DNA of 24,208 bases. Origin: a virus. Of this stretch, positions 3,350 to 8,139 are shown piece after piece (position 1 is the stretch's first letter; every line of letters begins with the position of its first letter). The stretch covers positions 1 to 24,208 of the IMG/VR virus record IMGVR_UViG_3300032242_000215, one strand, 5' to 3'. The notes below the pieces were generated by a model. The model saw only the letters and a program-made list of their open reading frames with translations, did no database searches and was not told the DNA's origin. A program made the position numbers and the translations under genes.

Positions 3350-3646
3350 ATGAAACTAGACTATCAAGGGAAACAATTAAAGTTGCATAAAAGAGCAACT
3401 TGTTTGCTGGAACTTTTAAAGAAGGCACAAAGCGAACAATCAAGACAGGAAGGCTTATTAGCTGAATGGAGAGCAGCAGGGCATTTTGACAATGTTCGAT
3501 TATTTACTCACGAAAACAATTACCTTATTAGGATTGCTGAATTAAACGACATACAAAAAAGAATCCTTAAAAGTTATTATTGGCTAATTGTAGAATTATA
3601 TTCTATAAGTGAGAATTTTATGTTACCTGTAAATGTTATCCAATGA
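3350..3646 (+). CDS. Helical protein of unknown function (98 aa)
   Basis: ATG 3350 follows the previous stop by one base and has the recurrent start context ACCAATAGT. An earlier TTG at 3314 would overlap the RHH gene and is rejected. The protein is almost entirely helical: a basic N-terminus (KQLKLHKRA), a helix (LLELLKKAQSEQSRQEGLLAEW), and a second helical half (IAELNDIQKRILKSYYWLIVELYSI). No motif is recognised. Its stop overlaps the next start (ATGA), indicating coupling. Confidence 0.6.
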   Translation: MKLDYQGKQLKLHKRATCLLELLKKAQSEQSRQEGLLAEWRAAGHFDNVRLFTHENNYLIRIAELNDIQKRILKSYYWLIVELYSISENFMLPVNVIQ

Positions 3647-5564: not shown

Positions 5565-5759
5565 ATGAGCCAAAACAAACAAATCGCAGACTACCTAAAT
5601 AAAGGTAAAAAGCTAACTACAATTGATGCCTTAACTAAATTTGGATGCTTTAGATTAGCAGCTAGAATATCAGATTTAAGGAATAATGGAATGAGTATTG
5701 TAACTAAGACAATCAAGCTGGATAATAACAAGCAGATTGCCCAATATTCAATAAAATAG
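5565..5759 (+). CDS. Small helix-turn-helix protein (HTH_39-like)
   Basis: The 64-residue protein resembles the HTH_39 (PF14090) family: QIADYLNKGKKLTTIDALTK (helix 1-2), then FGCFRLAARISDLRNNGMSI (recognition helix), and a C-terminal hairpin (VTKTIKLDNNKQIAQYSI), i.e. a winged HTH. Phage members are probably regulators. It is the last gene of the early operon, and its stop lies 2 nt before the -7 box at 5762. Whether it controls that promoter is untested. Confidence 0.76.
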   Translation: MSQNKQIADYLNKGKKLTTIDALTKFGCFRLAARISDLRNNGMSIVTKTIKLDNNKQIAQYSIK

Positions 5760-5769
5760 GTTATATTTG
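5737..5769 (+). promoter_or_regulatory. Promoter of the kissing-loop RNA
   Basis: TATATTTG (5762-5769) matches TAnnTTTG; TTG (5737-5739) lies 22 nt upstream. The block TTATATTTGCATT is identical to 1841-1853. Transcription is expected to begin around 5773-5776, just at the first hairpin. Confidence 0.55.
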
Positions 5770-5772
5770 CAT

Positions 5773-5860
5773 TGAGTGTCGGATACTCATTAAGAACTTA
5801 TTGCCCTTGCGATGAACTACCAATCCGACTGGTAGGGATTCAATGGGGCTTTTTTATTTT
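5773..5860 (+). ncRNA. Structured leader or small RNA with predicted 7-bp kissing loops
   Basis: Hairpin 1 has stem TGAGT/ACTCA (5773-5777/5785-5789) and 7-nt loop GTCGGAT (5778-5784). Hairpin 2 has stem CTACCA/TGGTAG (5817-5822/5830-5835) and 7-nt loop ATCCGAC (5823-5829). The two loops are perfect reverse complements over all seven bases, the geometry of known kissing complexes such as ColE1 RNAI/RNAII. Hairpin 2 is extended by TGAA/TTCA (5813-5816/5839-5842) with a GGA bulge and closed by GCCCT/GGGGC before a T-rich tract. With the promoter at 5762 it makes a self-contained RNA of about 85 nt. Since ATG 5861 follows directly, it may be an attenuating leader of the replication gene or an independent RNA. 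I recognise no described family. Confidence 0.6.
5803..5860 (+). terminator. Terminator or attenuator ending the kissing-loop RNA
   Basis: GCCCT (5803-5807) pairs with GGGGC (5845-5849), enclosing hairpin 2, and TTTTTTATTTT follows at 5850-5860. The stem is short and the enclosed part long, so efficiency may depend on whether hairpin 2 and the kissing contact form. It abuts the start codon at 5861. Confidence 0.5.
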
Positions 5861-6517
5861 ATGGCTAAAGACCCTGCGGTGTTGTTCTACACATCTGATT
5901 TTTTAAGTGGAACATTTACTATGACCAATGAACAAGTTGGTAAGTATATTAAATTATTATGCCTTCAGCATCAAAAAGGACCATTAACAGAACGTGATAT
6001 GTTAAGCGTATGTCAAACATATGATGAAGATATATTTGCAAAATTTGAATATATAGATAATCATTATGTGAATATTAGGATGCAAACAGAATCAATTAGG
6101 CGAAAATCATATTCAGAAAGTAGAAAAAACAATAGACTAAAGCCTAAAGAAGAAAACATATCAATATCATATGATAATCATATGGAAACTGAAACTGAAA
6201 ATAGAACTATAACTATAAATAAAACTAAAGATATAAATATAGATTTTGACTTTTTTTGGGATTATTACGATAAGAAGGTAGGCGAGAAAGGTAAAATAAA
6301 AAAGAAATGGGATAAATTAACCGATGAAGAACGGCAAAAAGCATTTAATTTTATAGAATCTTATAAGATTGTGCAACCTGATAAATATTATAGAAAAAAC
6401 CCTGAAACATTTTTAAACAATAAATCTTGGAACGATGAAATCATTGAACGAACTATTAGTACAAAACTTACCTATGCAGAACGTGAGTGGGAAAAGTTTA
6501 AGCAGCTTGGACAATGA
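5861..6517 (+). CDS. DUF1376-like phage replication protein
   Basis: The 218-residue protein begins DPAVLFYTSDFLSGTFTMTN and EQVGKYIKLLCLQHQKGPLT, the winged-helix pattern of DUF1376 and related phage replisome organisers. A variable polar linker rich in Thr, Asn and Lys (about residues 82-125) joins it to a C-terminal helical domain (FDFFWDYYDKKVGEKGKIKKKW, KNPETFLNNKSWNDEI) seen in phage replication initiators. It probably loads helicase or binds the origin. An ATG at 5843 extends the frame but lies in the terminator stem, so ATG 5861 is chosen. The gene overlaps its downstream neighbour. Confidence 0.8.
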   Translation: MAKDPAVLFYTSDFLSGTFTMTNEQVGKYIKLLCLQHQKGPLTERDMLSVCQTYDEDIFAKFEYIDNHYVNIRMQTESIRRKSYSESRKNNRLKPKEENISISYDNHMETETENRTITINKTKDINIDFDFFWDYYDKKVGEKGKIKKKWDKLTDEERQKAFNFIESYKIVQPDKYYRKNPETFLNNKSWNDEIIERTISTKLTYAEREWEKFKQLGQ

Positions 6518-7136
6518 TGAAATAAAAGTATTTAAGGCTTTAGAATCAATGGGTATTAGACAATGTTCAAGGATTGAAGTAATAGAGCATCTAAAGATTT
6601 GCCTTGCTTTAAGCGGTACTCAAATGCCAACAAATGAAATATTTCAGCTTTGCGTTTCATTTGTGATTGAATCTTTTGGGCAATACAAACTTAAAGAATT
6701 AGGAACGGCTTTTAAGATGTTTGCAGAGGACAAGTTTTCTATTGATAAGCATATAAATTTTAGCCCAAAGTTAATTGGCGAGGTAATGAATGCTTATAAA
6801 AAAATAGCAGTTCAAGTAAGAAATAAGATTGAAGTAAACGAAATAAACGAAACACCTATGGAAATAGATGAAGAACAAGTAATGAAAGATGAAGCCGAAT
6901 ACTGGAAGACATCAAAGAAAGATTGGCGGTTTTTAAACTATCAATGTTTTGATTACCTGTGGAAGCGAAAGTTAATTAAAATAAGTCCAGAGAAGGCAGA
7001 TTTAATAAAAGCTAGGGTAAATGCCTATAATTTGGCACAGGCTAAAAAACCTGAAGATATTTTAACAGATGAAGAAACTATTAGGCAACAATGCAAAAAA
7101 TATTCCCTTAAACTTTATTACGACAACGAATTATGA
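6474..7136 (+). CDS. Replication-module protein of unknown function
   Basis: The frame is open from ATG 6435, but ATG 6474 (44-nt overlap) or TTG 6507 fits the operon better; the start is uncertain. The conserved-looking core is IKVFKALESMGIRQCSRIEV, then IFQLCVSFVIESFGQYKLKELGTAF and FSIDKHINFSPKLIGEVMNAYKK, a helical domain common next to DnaC- or DnaB-type genes in Bacteroidota phages. A charged linker leads to a basic C-terminal helix (WRFLNYQCFDYLWKRKLIKI). There is no ATPase motif. Placement after the DUF1376-like gene suggests a replication partner, perhaps a helicase-loader-like factor. Confidence 0.62.
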   Translation: MQNVSGKSLSSLDNDEIKVFKALESMGIRQCSRIEVIEHLKICLALSGTQMPTNEIFQLCVSFVIESFGQYKLKELGTAFKMFAEDKFSIDKHINFSPKLIGEVMNAYKKIAVQVRNKIEVNEINETPMEIDEEQVMKDEAEYWKTSKKDWRFLNYQCFDYLWKRKLIKISPEKADLIKARVNAYNLAQAKKPEDILTDEETIRQQCKKYSLKLYYDNEL

Positions 7137-7382: not shown

Positions 7383-7488
7383 ACCATTAGAACTACTAAA
7401 GTTTTTCTTTATTTCAGTACCAGTATTCCTAGTTGTTTACTGCTCTGTAATGATATGTATTGAAATTAAAGACCTAATAAAACGATGA
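7372..7488 (+). CDS. 38-aa membrane micropeptide (2 of 3)
   Basis: ATG 7372 overlaps the previous frame by 11 nt. A basic start (MKIKPLELLK) precedes a long hydrophobic stretch (FFFISVPVFLVVYCSVMICI, residues 11-30) and a charged tail (EIKDLIKR), typical of a single-pass protein with cytoplasmic ends. The stop overlaps the next ATG (ATGA). It fills a gap between two real genes, which supports coding. Confidence 0.52.
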   Translation: MKIKPLELLKFFFISVPVFLVVYCSVMICIEIKDLIKR

Positions 7489-7559
7489 AAGTATTAATTG
7501 TCATATTGATTTGGGAATTACTAAAAGAATTATACTATTATCTTATAAAAAAACTATGA
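7485..7559 (+). CDS. 24-aa membrane micropeptide (3 of 3)
   Basis: ATG 7485 overlaps the preceding TGA, and its own TGA overlaps the next ATG at 7556, so it is linked to both neighbours by ATGA junctions. The sequence is a hydrophobic helix (KVLIVILIWELL) continuing into an amphipathic basic end (KELYYYLIKKL). Function unknown. Confidence 0.42.
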   Translation: MKVLIVILIWELLKELYYYLIKKL

Positions 7560-7753
7560 AAGGACACGAGAATGCACAACCTGTGAGAATGATATTTTTA
7601 GATACCAAAGAAGAAATAGAGTTTAAATCAGTAGCCTACGCAACAAGAGTAACAGGGGTAAATGAATACCAAATAAAGGAATCCTTTAGCCCAATCAAAA
7701 AGAAGCGGTTTGAGTACCAAGATCGAAAAATAACGTTTCGTATCAAAAAGTAA
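7556..7753 (+). CDS. Small basic protein of unknown function (65 aa)
   Basis: ATG 7556 is preferred over the in-frame ATG 7511 because it forms an ATGA overlap with the preceding micropeptide. The protein has a strand (VRMIFLDTKEEIEFKS), a helix-turn (VAYATRVTGVNEYQIKESF) and a basic strand pair at the end (RFEYQDRKITFRIKK). The middle looks like a short helix-turn-helix of the kind found as a NUMOD1-like DNA-reading module, but this is uncertain. It ends 2 nt before the -7 box of ninG. Confidence 0.5.
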   Translation: MKGHENAQPVRMIFLDTKEEIEFKSVAYATRVTGVNEYQIKESFSPIKKKRFEYQDRKITFRIKK

Positions 7754-7755
7754 CT

Positions 7756-7763
7756 TAGTTTTG
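7756..7763 (+). promoter_or_regulatory. -7 promoter element before the NinG gene
   Basis: TAGTTTTG matches TAnnTTTG and ends 4 nt before ATG 7768. Transcription would begin at or next to the start codon, giving a nearly leaderless mRNA. No clear -33 TTTG is present. Confidence 0.38.
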
Positions 7764-7767
7764 CATT

Positions 7768-8139
7768 ATGGCACTACCTACGATTCCAAAATTAACGGCA
7801 AAGGCTCAAGCAATATTTAATCGATACATTCGTACAAGGGATTCGCAAGATGGATTTTTTACTTGTATTTCTTGCGGTCAAACCAAAGGACACGAAGTTA
7901 TGGATGCTGGGCATTATGTCCCAGTCAAAGGAAGTTCTGCATTAAGATTTGATGAATACAACGTAAACGGAGAATGTAAATCTTGCAATGGATTTGACCA
8001 ATTTCATCTTATAGGCTATCGAAAGAATTTAATAGACAAAATAGGAGAAAGAATGGTTTTGCACTTAGAAAGTCAACATAGACTAATAAAACGTTGGTCA
8101 AGAACTGAATTAAACGAAATAATCGAAAAGTACAAATAA
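7768..8139 (+). CDS. ninG: NinG/Rap-like recombination protein
   Basis: The 123-residue protein matches lambda NinG (Rap, PF05766). CISC (Cys33, Cys36) and CKSC (Cys70, Cys73) form a zinc site around DAGHYVPVKGSSALRFDE (46-63) and the NVNGEC strand, an HNH-like beta-beta-alpha core with His49 as candidate catalytic residue. The end has the usual YRKNLIDKIGERMVLHLE helix. NinG cuts branched structures in phage recombination and would act with ERF. Lambda NinG is about 200 residues; shorter versions are usual in Bacteroidota phages. Its stop overlaps the next start by one base (TAATG). Confidence 0.88.
   Translation: MALPTIPKLTAKAQAIFNRYIRTRDSQDGFFTCISCGQTKGHEVMDAGHYVPVKGSSALRFDEYNVNGECKSCNGFDQFHLIGYRKNLIDKIGERMVLHLESQHRLIKRWSRTELNEIIEKYK

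Follow-up and report, generated by a model that had tools for sequence, protein, structure and literature searches.

The window analyzed in this study, meaning the whole stretch of 24,208 nucleotides, is a 24.2-kb IMG/VR virus record. It contains a recombination-replication module (DnaA-C-like, ERF) in which a leader RNA of approximately 80 to 85 nt lies between two genes of the plus strand, ahead of a replication gene. The upstream gene (positions 5565 to 5759) encodes an HTH_39 winged helix protein, is co-directional with the RNA and ends 2 nt before a promoter box. The downstream gene (5861 to 6517) encodes a replication-initiator-like protein with a DUF1376-like N-terminus, annotated by PHROG as replication initiation protein/primosomal protein; its DUF1376 match is weak. 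The leader RNA, whose features are all on the plus strand, consists of two hairpins, P1 and P2, with mutually complementary tips.

A Bacteroidota-type -7 promoter box, TATATTTG, occupies positions 5762 to 5769, 3 nt 5' of P1, and from this box the transcript is predicted to start at about position 5773, the base of P1. A possible, weak -33 element (TTG, 5737 to 5739) lies 22 nt before the -7 box; a TTG at a spacing of 17 to 24 nt was found in only about half of the homologues. P1 (5773 to 5789) pairs TGAGT (5773 to 5777) with ACTCA (5785 to 5789), as indicated by the sequence, the predicted fold and a covarying stem in homologues, and it closes the loop L1, GTCGGAT (5778 to 5784). A linker of 13 nt (5790 to 5802) follows, which holds AACUUAUU (5795 to 5802), a stretch predicted to be unpaired. 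P2 spans 47 nt (5803 to 5849) in the minimum-energy fold. Its base stem pairs GCCCU (5803 to 5807) with GGGGC and is followed by a 3x3 internal loop, a GA/UC pairing, a 4x4 internal loop (UGAA/GGAU) and an apical stem of 6 bp, CUACCA/UGGUAG (5817 to 5822 and 5830 to 5835). The apical stem closes the loop L2, ATCCGAC (5823 to 5829), which is the exact reverse complement of L1. From P2 to the ATG start codon at 5861 runs an intrinsic-terminator-like U-tract, UUUUUU-AUUUU (5850 to 5860), such that GGGGC-T6 falls at 5845 to 5855. A preliminary description of this DNA had listed the -7 box, hairpin 1, both loops, GGGGC-T6 and the ATG, which are all confirmed at the positions that it states, and the exact complementarity of the loops that it reported is present in the window sequence. 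Its hairpin 2 requires correction: the stem CTACCA/TGGTAG with the loop ATCCGAC exists, but it is only the tip of the 47-nt P2, and GGGGC is paired with GCCCU at 5803 to 5807. That description included neither the larger, terminator-like form of P2 nor the invariant linker AACUUWUU, nor did it connect the RNA to homing endonucleases.

For the window RNA, the P1/P2 layout is the fold of lowest energy, and a similar layout is predicted for distant homologues (z approximately -2 to -4.3). A longer stretch of the window folds with a z of only -0.54, and folding energy alone would not prove the P1/P2 structure. The start region (5850 to 5860) is unpaired in the predicted leader fold and holds no Shine-Dalgarno (SD) sequence. 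An outer stem enclosing the whole RNA, CATTGA/TCAATG, was rejected, as it is present in the window and not conserved in homologues. A K-turn in the internal loop was also dropped, the loop being symmetric in the predicted folds. In addition, an in-frame ATG occurs within the 3' strand of P2 (5843 to 5863, MGLFYFMAKD...), which would give the initiator six extra residues. This ATG is probably due to chance, because the GGCTC/GAGCC type of leader does not have one.

Several hundred homologue loci were collected from IMG/VR contigs through relatives of the downstream protein and through DNA patterns, and counts are to be read as lower bounds. The element was found in well over 100 other IMG/VR contigs and is thus shared by many phages of aquatic origin. 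No match above the gathering cut-off was obtained in the window with Rfam 15 (the best at a relaxed threshold had an E value of 2.5, as expected by chance), and the leaders of 14 loci, which represent several subfamilies, likewise matched nothing in Rfam 15, in keeping with the statement in the preliminary description that no described RNA family is known to have this layout. The nearest named phages, Flavobacterium phage 11b, Cellulophaga phi10:1 and Flavobacterium phage immuto, contained no copy by regular expression and inspection or by covariance model. Searches with blastn found no real match to leader sequences in 50,697 phage records or to the window leader in 72,556 plasmids. Two patterns run across 84,980 bacterial and archaeal genomes found no copy and returned three unrelated AT-rich stretches only. 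The leader RNA is not described in the open-access literature searched; it may be listed, unnamed, in catalogues of candidate phage RNAs. We rate it as a new and in some respects unusual family of cis-acting leader. Flavobacteria are the most likely hosts, because the neighboring proteins have their nearest relatives in Flavobacterium and Cellulophaga phages and because the promoter box is of the Bacteroidota type.

The pairing of L1 with L2 is conserved across the homologues. Nineteen distinct 7-nt loop pairs were all perfect, with 133 of 133 positions forming Watson-Crick pairs against a mean of 66 and a maximum of 100 in 10,000 shuffles. This set was chosen in part for complementarity, and the test was therefore repeated on 126 distinct RNAs picked by the P2 base stem only, among the matches listed. 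Complementarity between the loops covered at least 6 bases in 125 of the 126 and at least 7 bases in 120, compared with 36 and 12 of 252 controls, respectively; one subtype accounts for most of the control matches. The only RNA that fails appears to have lost part of P1. As the RNAs are related, these counts are not independent, and a better measure is the number of different loop words: at least 24 occur among the 126 RNAs and are nearly always matched (some overlap, and one or two may be chance). Natural variants of the window pair include GTCGTAT/ATACGAC and GTCGTTT/AAACGAC. In loci selected by protein, matching loops were found in 73 of 77 stretches, and three of the remainder hold GTAGGAT/ATCCTAC on inspection. 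The loop words are swapped in three RNAs (L1 ATGCGAC, L2 GTCGCAT).

An alignment of 44 sequences contained changes on both sides at all seven loop-loop pairs, with 90.6% of cells paired. The covariation score of the whole structure in this alignment was 0.597, compared with 0.184 +/- 0.012 for 500 shuffles and no more than 0.24 (0.237) when the partners were slid by 1 to 3 columns. The base and apical stems of P2 covary there, as does the P1 stem. In the first alignment just 68% of the P1 cells were paired, a figure lowered in part by the displacement of the 3' strand of P1 by MAFFT. An anchored analysis found a P1 of 4 to 7 bp in 55 of 56 RNAs, a set that was itself chosen for kissing. The results support a conserved loop-loop (kissing) pairing, which could be intramolecular or form between two copies of the RNA. 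The kissing fold predicted in the preliminary description is thereby strengthened, for the stems as for the loop-loop pairs; rather than losing their complementarity, the loops keep it by extensive compensatory change. Four contigs (L129, L135, L222 and L143) carry two copies of the leader, and in the two where both loops were read (L129 and L222) the loops differ between copies, as if the copies were kept from cross-pairing.

The linker holds the most conserved stretch of the family, AACUUAUU. In the form AACUUWUU, the AACUU and the last two U are invariant in 44 divergent RNAs, and AACUUAUU is also found in the endonuclease subfamily; most of the homologue searches used this word. The sequence AATAAGTT, which would pair with the linker in antisense, is not enriched in the window. 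Of 106 distinct homologous RNAs, 94 carry a TAnnTTTG -7 box just 5' of P1, at a distance that the script measured as 2 to 8 nt in nearly all of them. Within the window the motif by itself shows no enrichment (44 occurrences, with 43 expected), and the argument for a promoter is therefore the position of the box. An ORF on the same strand precedes the leader in 140 of 140 homologous loci examined, ending a median of 13 nt before P1, which is just enough for the predicted promoter box. Elsewhere in the window, a second TATATTTG box lies in a long non-coding stretch (approximately 1785 to 2385), and about 30 nt beyond it comes the hairpin GGGGGTGCATTTTTATGCTGCCCCC, which is rich in GC and has a T7 tail. 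This site (1842 to 1910) could be a short transcript of about 55 nt, and no kissing layout was seen in it. A terminator-like hairpin, CTCCCTGCCGAAAGGTGGGGAG-TTTT, is found at 1813 to 1834, 3' of the first gene block.

A GC base stem with an adjacent U-tract is present in all subfamilies, which is the arrangement of an intrinsic terminator, a GC-rich stem followed immediately by U residues. The quality of the U-tract differs among homologues, and it is imperfect in some (GGGCACUUUU, GGGCUAUUUU). A U-run was present in 45 of 45 homologues obtained with a pattern that did not demand one; in the script-built sets a T-run was required. A generic sigma-70/terminator scan did not flag the site, where P2 is long and broken by internal loops. 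The distance to the start codon is nearly constant. Among the matches listed, an AUG followed the U-run within 17 nt (6 to 17) in all 126 RNAs selected by base stem and within 11 nt in 125 of them, and neither the base-stem search nor several of the other pattern searches demanded an AUG. In at least 158 instances the AUG lies 7 to 13 nt after the start of the U-run; the few exceptions are plainly false positives, except for one at the truncated end of a contig. Ahead of the AUG, T makes up 68% of the bases at genes with the leader, whereas 590 other ORFs on these contigs have 48% A and 26% T there. Thus, the U-tract belongs to the element and is not a general property of start sites in these phages.

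The leader holds this constant position ahead of genes of several unrelated families, as is characteristic of a cis-regulatory leader. In approximately 130 of the 158 instances, among the matches listed, the product of the following gene is replication-initiator-like, with several types represented (Lin1244_N, DUF1376-like and others). In four contigs (L077, L112, L229 and L272) an HNH, GIY-YIG or methylase-like gene is located between the leader and the initiator, some of these names being based on visible motifs instead of a Pfam match. Two contigs, L072 and L073, encode relatives of the initiator (58% identity) without the leader RNA, and L072 has an SD-like AAAGGAGG before the ATG. The L072 locus suggests that the leader RNA is tied to hosts that do not use SD sequences.

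A second subfamily was matched by the covariance model trained on the first, with E values of approximately 1e-3 to 3e-5 per genome. Its members lie ahead of homing endonucleases of the HNH and GIY-YIG types in larger T4-like phages, at times with several on one contig, and some of these endonucleases matched NUMOD1, NUMOD3, NUMOD4 or HNH_3. In Flavobacterium phage immuto, recA, exonuclease and helicase are contiguous, and contig L222 has leader and endonuclease together in two junctions that are empty in immuto. The T4-like phages of contigs L326, L339, L343 and L222 have numerous homing endonucleases placed at operon junctions (dUTPase, dCMP deaminase, recA, exonuclease, helicase), and several of these endonucleases come with a leader RNA of their own. 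Contig L339 also carries a phage-borne tmRNA and a tRNA (7462 to 7897 and 6981 to 7052, by Rfam). The endonuclease subfamily shows almost no variation in the lower part of P1, TTATAGATAG/CTATCTATAA, which also overlaps the promoter; therefore, the palindrome TTATAGATAG...CTATCTATAA may be a DNA operator as well as part of the RNA, comparable to I-TevI autorepression. This near-invariant palindrome lies over the promoter of unrelated endonuclease genes, for instance at 3437 to 3470 of L222.

Several known RNAs share features with the leader. ColE1 RNAI/RNAII kiss through fully complementary 7-nt loops; however, they are an intermolecular sense/antisense pair of one locus, whereas the leader has both loops in one RNA tied to a gene start. 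Purine-riboswitch-type and guanidine-II RNAs are leaders organized by an intramolecular loop-loop contact, and the present leader differs from them in having neither a junction aptamer nor conserved ACGR loops. The HK022 put antitermination RNAs fold into two hairpins at the 5' end of an early phage transcript. We know of no kissing loops in put RNAs, and the second hairpin of the leader, unlike put, has its own U-tract. The guanidine-IV riboswitch (GGAM-1/mepA motif) has the same architecture as the leader, with two kissing hairpins, the second of terminator type, and a short linker. Like the leader, it is always upstream of a gene and serves several unrelated genes. In the published guanidine-IV model, when P1 kisses P2, which is the terminator hairpin, the linker is stretched and the outer pairs of the terminator are blocked (PMC7736828; PMC11611296), and this opposition of kissing and terminator base could be transferred to the leader. 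The guanidine-IV loop positions are 97% conserved and essential for binding (PMC7736828). Guanidine-IV has near-invariant loop nucleotides for its ligand, including those of its second loop, whereas the leader loops vary freely (at least 24 words) and the invariant bases are in the linker. Guanidine-IV serves guanidine-related genes such as transporters, and the leader serves replication initiators and endonucleases; the leader also differs in its location in phage genomes and in having no Rfam match. By this comparison, the best reading is that the leader would work like guanidine-IV riboswitches but is no member of that class. Structured RNA is also found directly 5' of T4-type homing endonuclease genes (I-TevI, segB, Aeh1 mobE), with an own promoter near the hairpin (PMC2988022), and in its position ahead of such genes the leader is similar. 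However, the T4-type hairpins are single and hide an SD sequence, whereas the leader has two hairpins, a covarying kissing pair, a U-tract and no SD, and is common to HNH and GIY-YIG genes and replication initiators.

At the level of sequence comparison, both hairpins, the loop pairing, the invariant linker, the U-tract and the fixed AUG distance are established. A GC stem and U-tract before the start codon, with a predicted promoter flush with the 5' hairpin, is an attenuator layout. Most likely, the leader sets how often the downstream genes are read. We lean, by a little, toward a cis-acting leader in which loop-loop kissing tunes a predicted intrinsic terminator ahead of a timing-critical gene. 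Transcription would start at the base of P1, which would fold first and whose 7-nt loop would pair with the apical loop of P2. P2, with its GC-rich base and the U-tract just ahead of the start codon, would act as a partial terminator (attenuator). Kissing across the short 13-nt linker would compete with or modulate closure of the P2 base, and this closure would set the read-through of RNA polymerase into the gene. By rough helix geometry, the kissing rod would contain approximately 30 stacked pairs and a 13-nt linker would be at the limit of the possible span, so that kissing and P2 base closure probably influence each other. The signal would be read by the linker AACUUWUU and/or the purine-rich internal loop and not by L1 and L2, because the loop words drift freely as long as they are matched. 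The genes guarded in this way would be those of replication initiators and homing endonucleases, proteins whose dose and timing matter. The imperfect U-tracts of some homologues and the missed terminator scan count against an attenuator, as does the operon cost in the endonuclease insertions, where a strong terminator would be costly because these leaders sit in an operon with an essential-looking downstream gene.

The main rival to the attenuator is a role in translation or mRNA stability, which we judge unlikely, in which the kissing fold would cap the 5' end against RNases and/or hamper 30S binding at the U-rich start, P2 and the U-run being no terminator. Such a role would suit a P1 flush with the predicted 5' end, a P2 that ends 11 nt before the AUG, inside the usual ribosome footprint, and the initiator relatives of L072 and L073 that lack the RNA, with the SD-like AAAGGAGG in its place in L072. 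It also has a precedent in the T4 and Aeh1 endonucleases, whose translation is delayed by RNA structure (PMC2988022). However, a GC-rich stem with an immediate U-tract is needed for an intrinsic terminator and not for translational control, other genes of these phages have A-rich and not U-rich start regions, and the predicted folds leave the start region itself free.

A spacing to the AUG that stays fixed in front of unrelated protein families argues for cis action, and control of the following gene, one of the functions put forward in the preliminary description, gains from it, as the RNA is always 6 to 17 nt (nearly always 6 to 11) ahead of the AUG whatever the gene. Control of read-through, as proposed there, is plausible in view of the terminator-like P2 and its U-tract. 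The free small RNA proposed there as another option is disfavored by the fixed spacing. A phage small RNA of about 80 nt with a function in trans, such as loop-loop pairing with a second RNA, would account for the own promoter box and terminator-like end, and its complementary loops could also pair between molecules; nevertheless, it is improbable, since trans action leaves unexplained why all 126 RNAs selected by base stem have their AUG at this distance, and free diversification of the loops is contrary to a fixed target. A binding site for a phage or host protein, serving autoregulation by the gene product or a put-like modification of RNA polymerase, is quite improbable. Here the kissing fold would present AACUUWUU and the internal loop, consistent with an invariant single-stranded AACUUWUU and a purine-rich internal loop next to freely changing loops. 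However, the downstream products (replication proteins, HNH, GIY-YIG, methylase-like) are unrelated, which argues against simple autoregulation by one protein family; protein binding and attenuation could coexist. The location in a replication module beside the initiator gene would fit a transcript that primes phage DNA replication in the manner of ColE1, but the same kind of RNA occurs ahead of homing endonucleases far from any initiator, in several copies per genome, and this explanation is highly improbable.

Beyond the attenuator itself, a wider and more tentative proposal, somewhat doubtful as a whole, is that the leader represents a new regulatory RNA class, carried along with the homing endonuclease genes of phages and captured by phage replication operons. 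Its terminator would be gated by kissing, its drifting loop pair, with each RNA holding its own key and lock, would let many copies coexist in one genome, and a signal made by phage or host would be sensed through AACUUWUU. The leader appears to be an undescribed and common family of structured RNA in Bacteroidota phages, a group with few known RNA regulators and little SD-led translation. Its more than 20 natural loop variants, with built-in compensatory mutations, make the idea of kissing versus termination, which was put forward for guanidine-IV riboswitches, testable in an RNA whose loops hold no ligand pocket. In addition, the leader links the control of replication initiators with that of homing endonucleases, and this suggests that a regulatory RNA can move inside a homing cassette.
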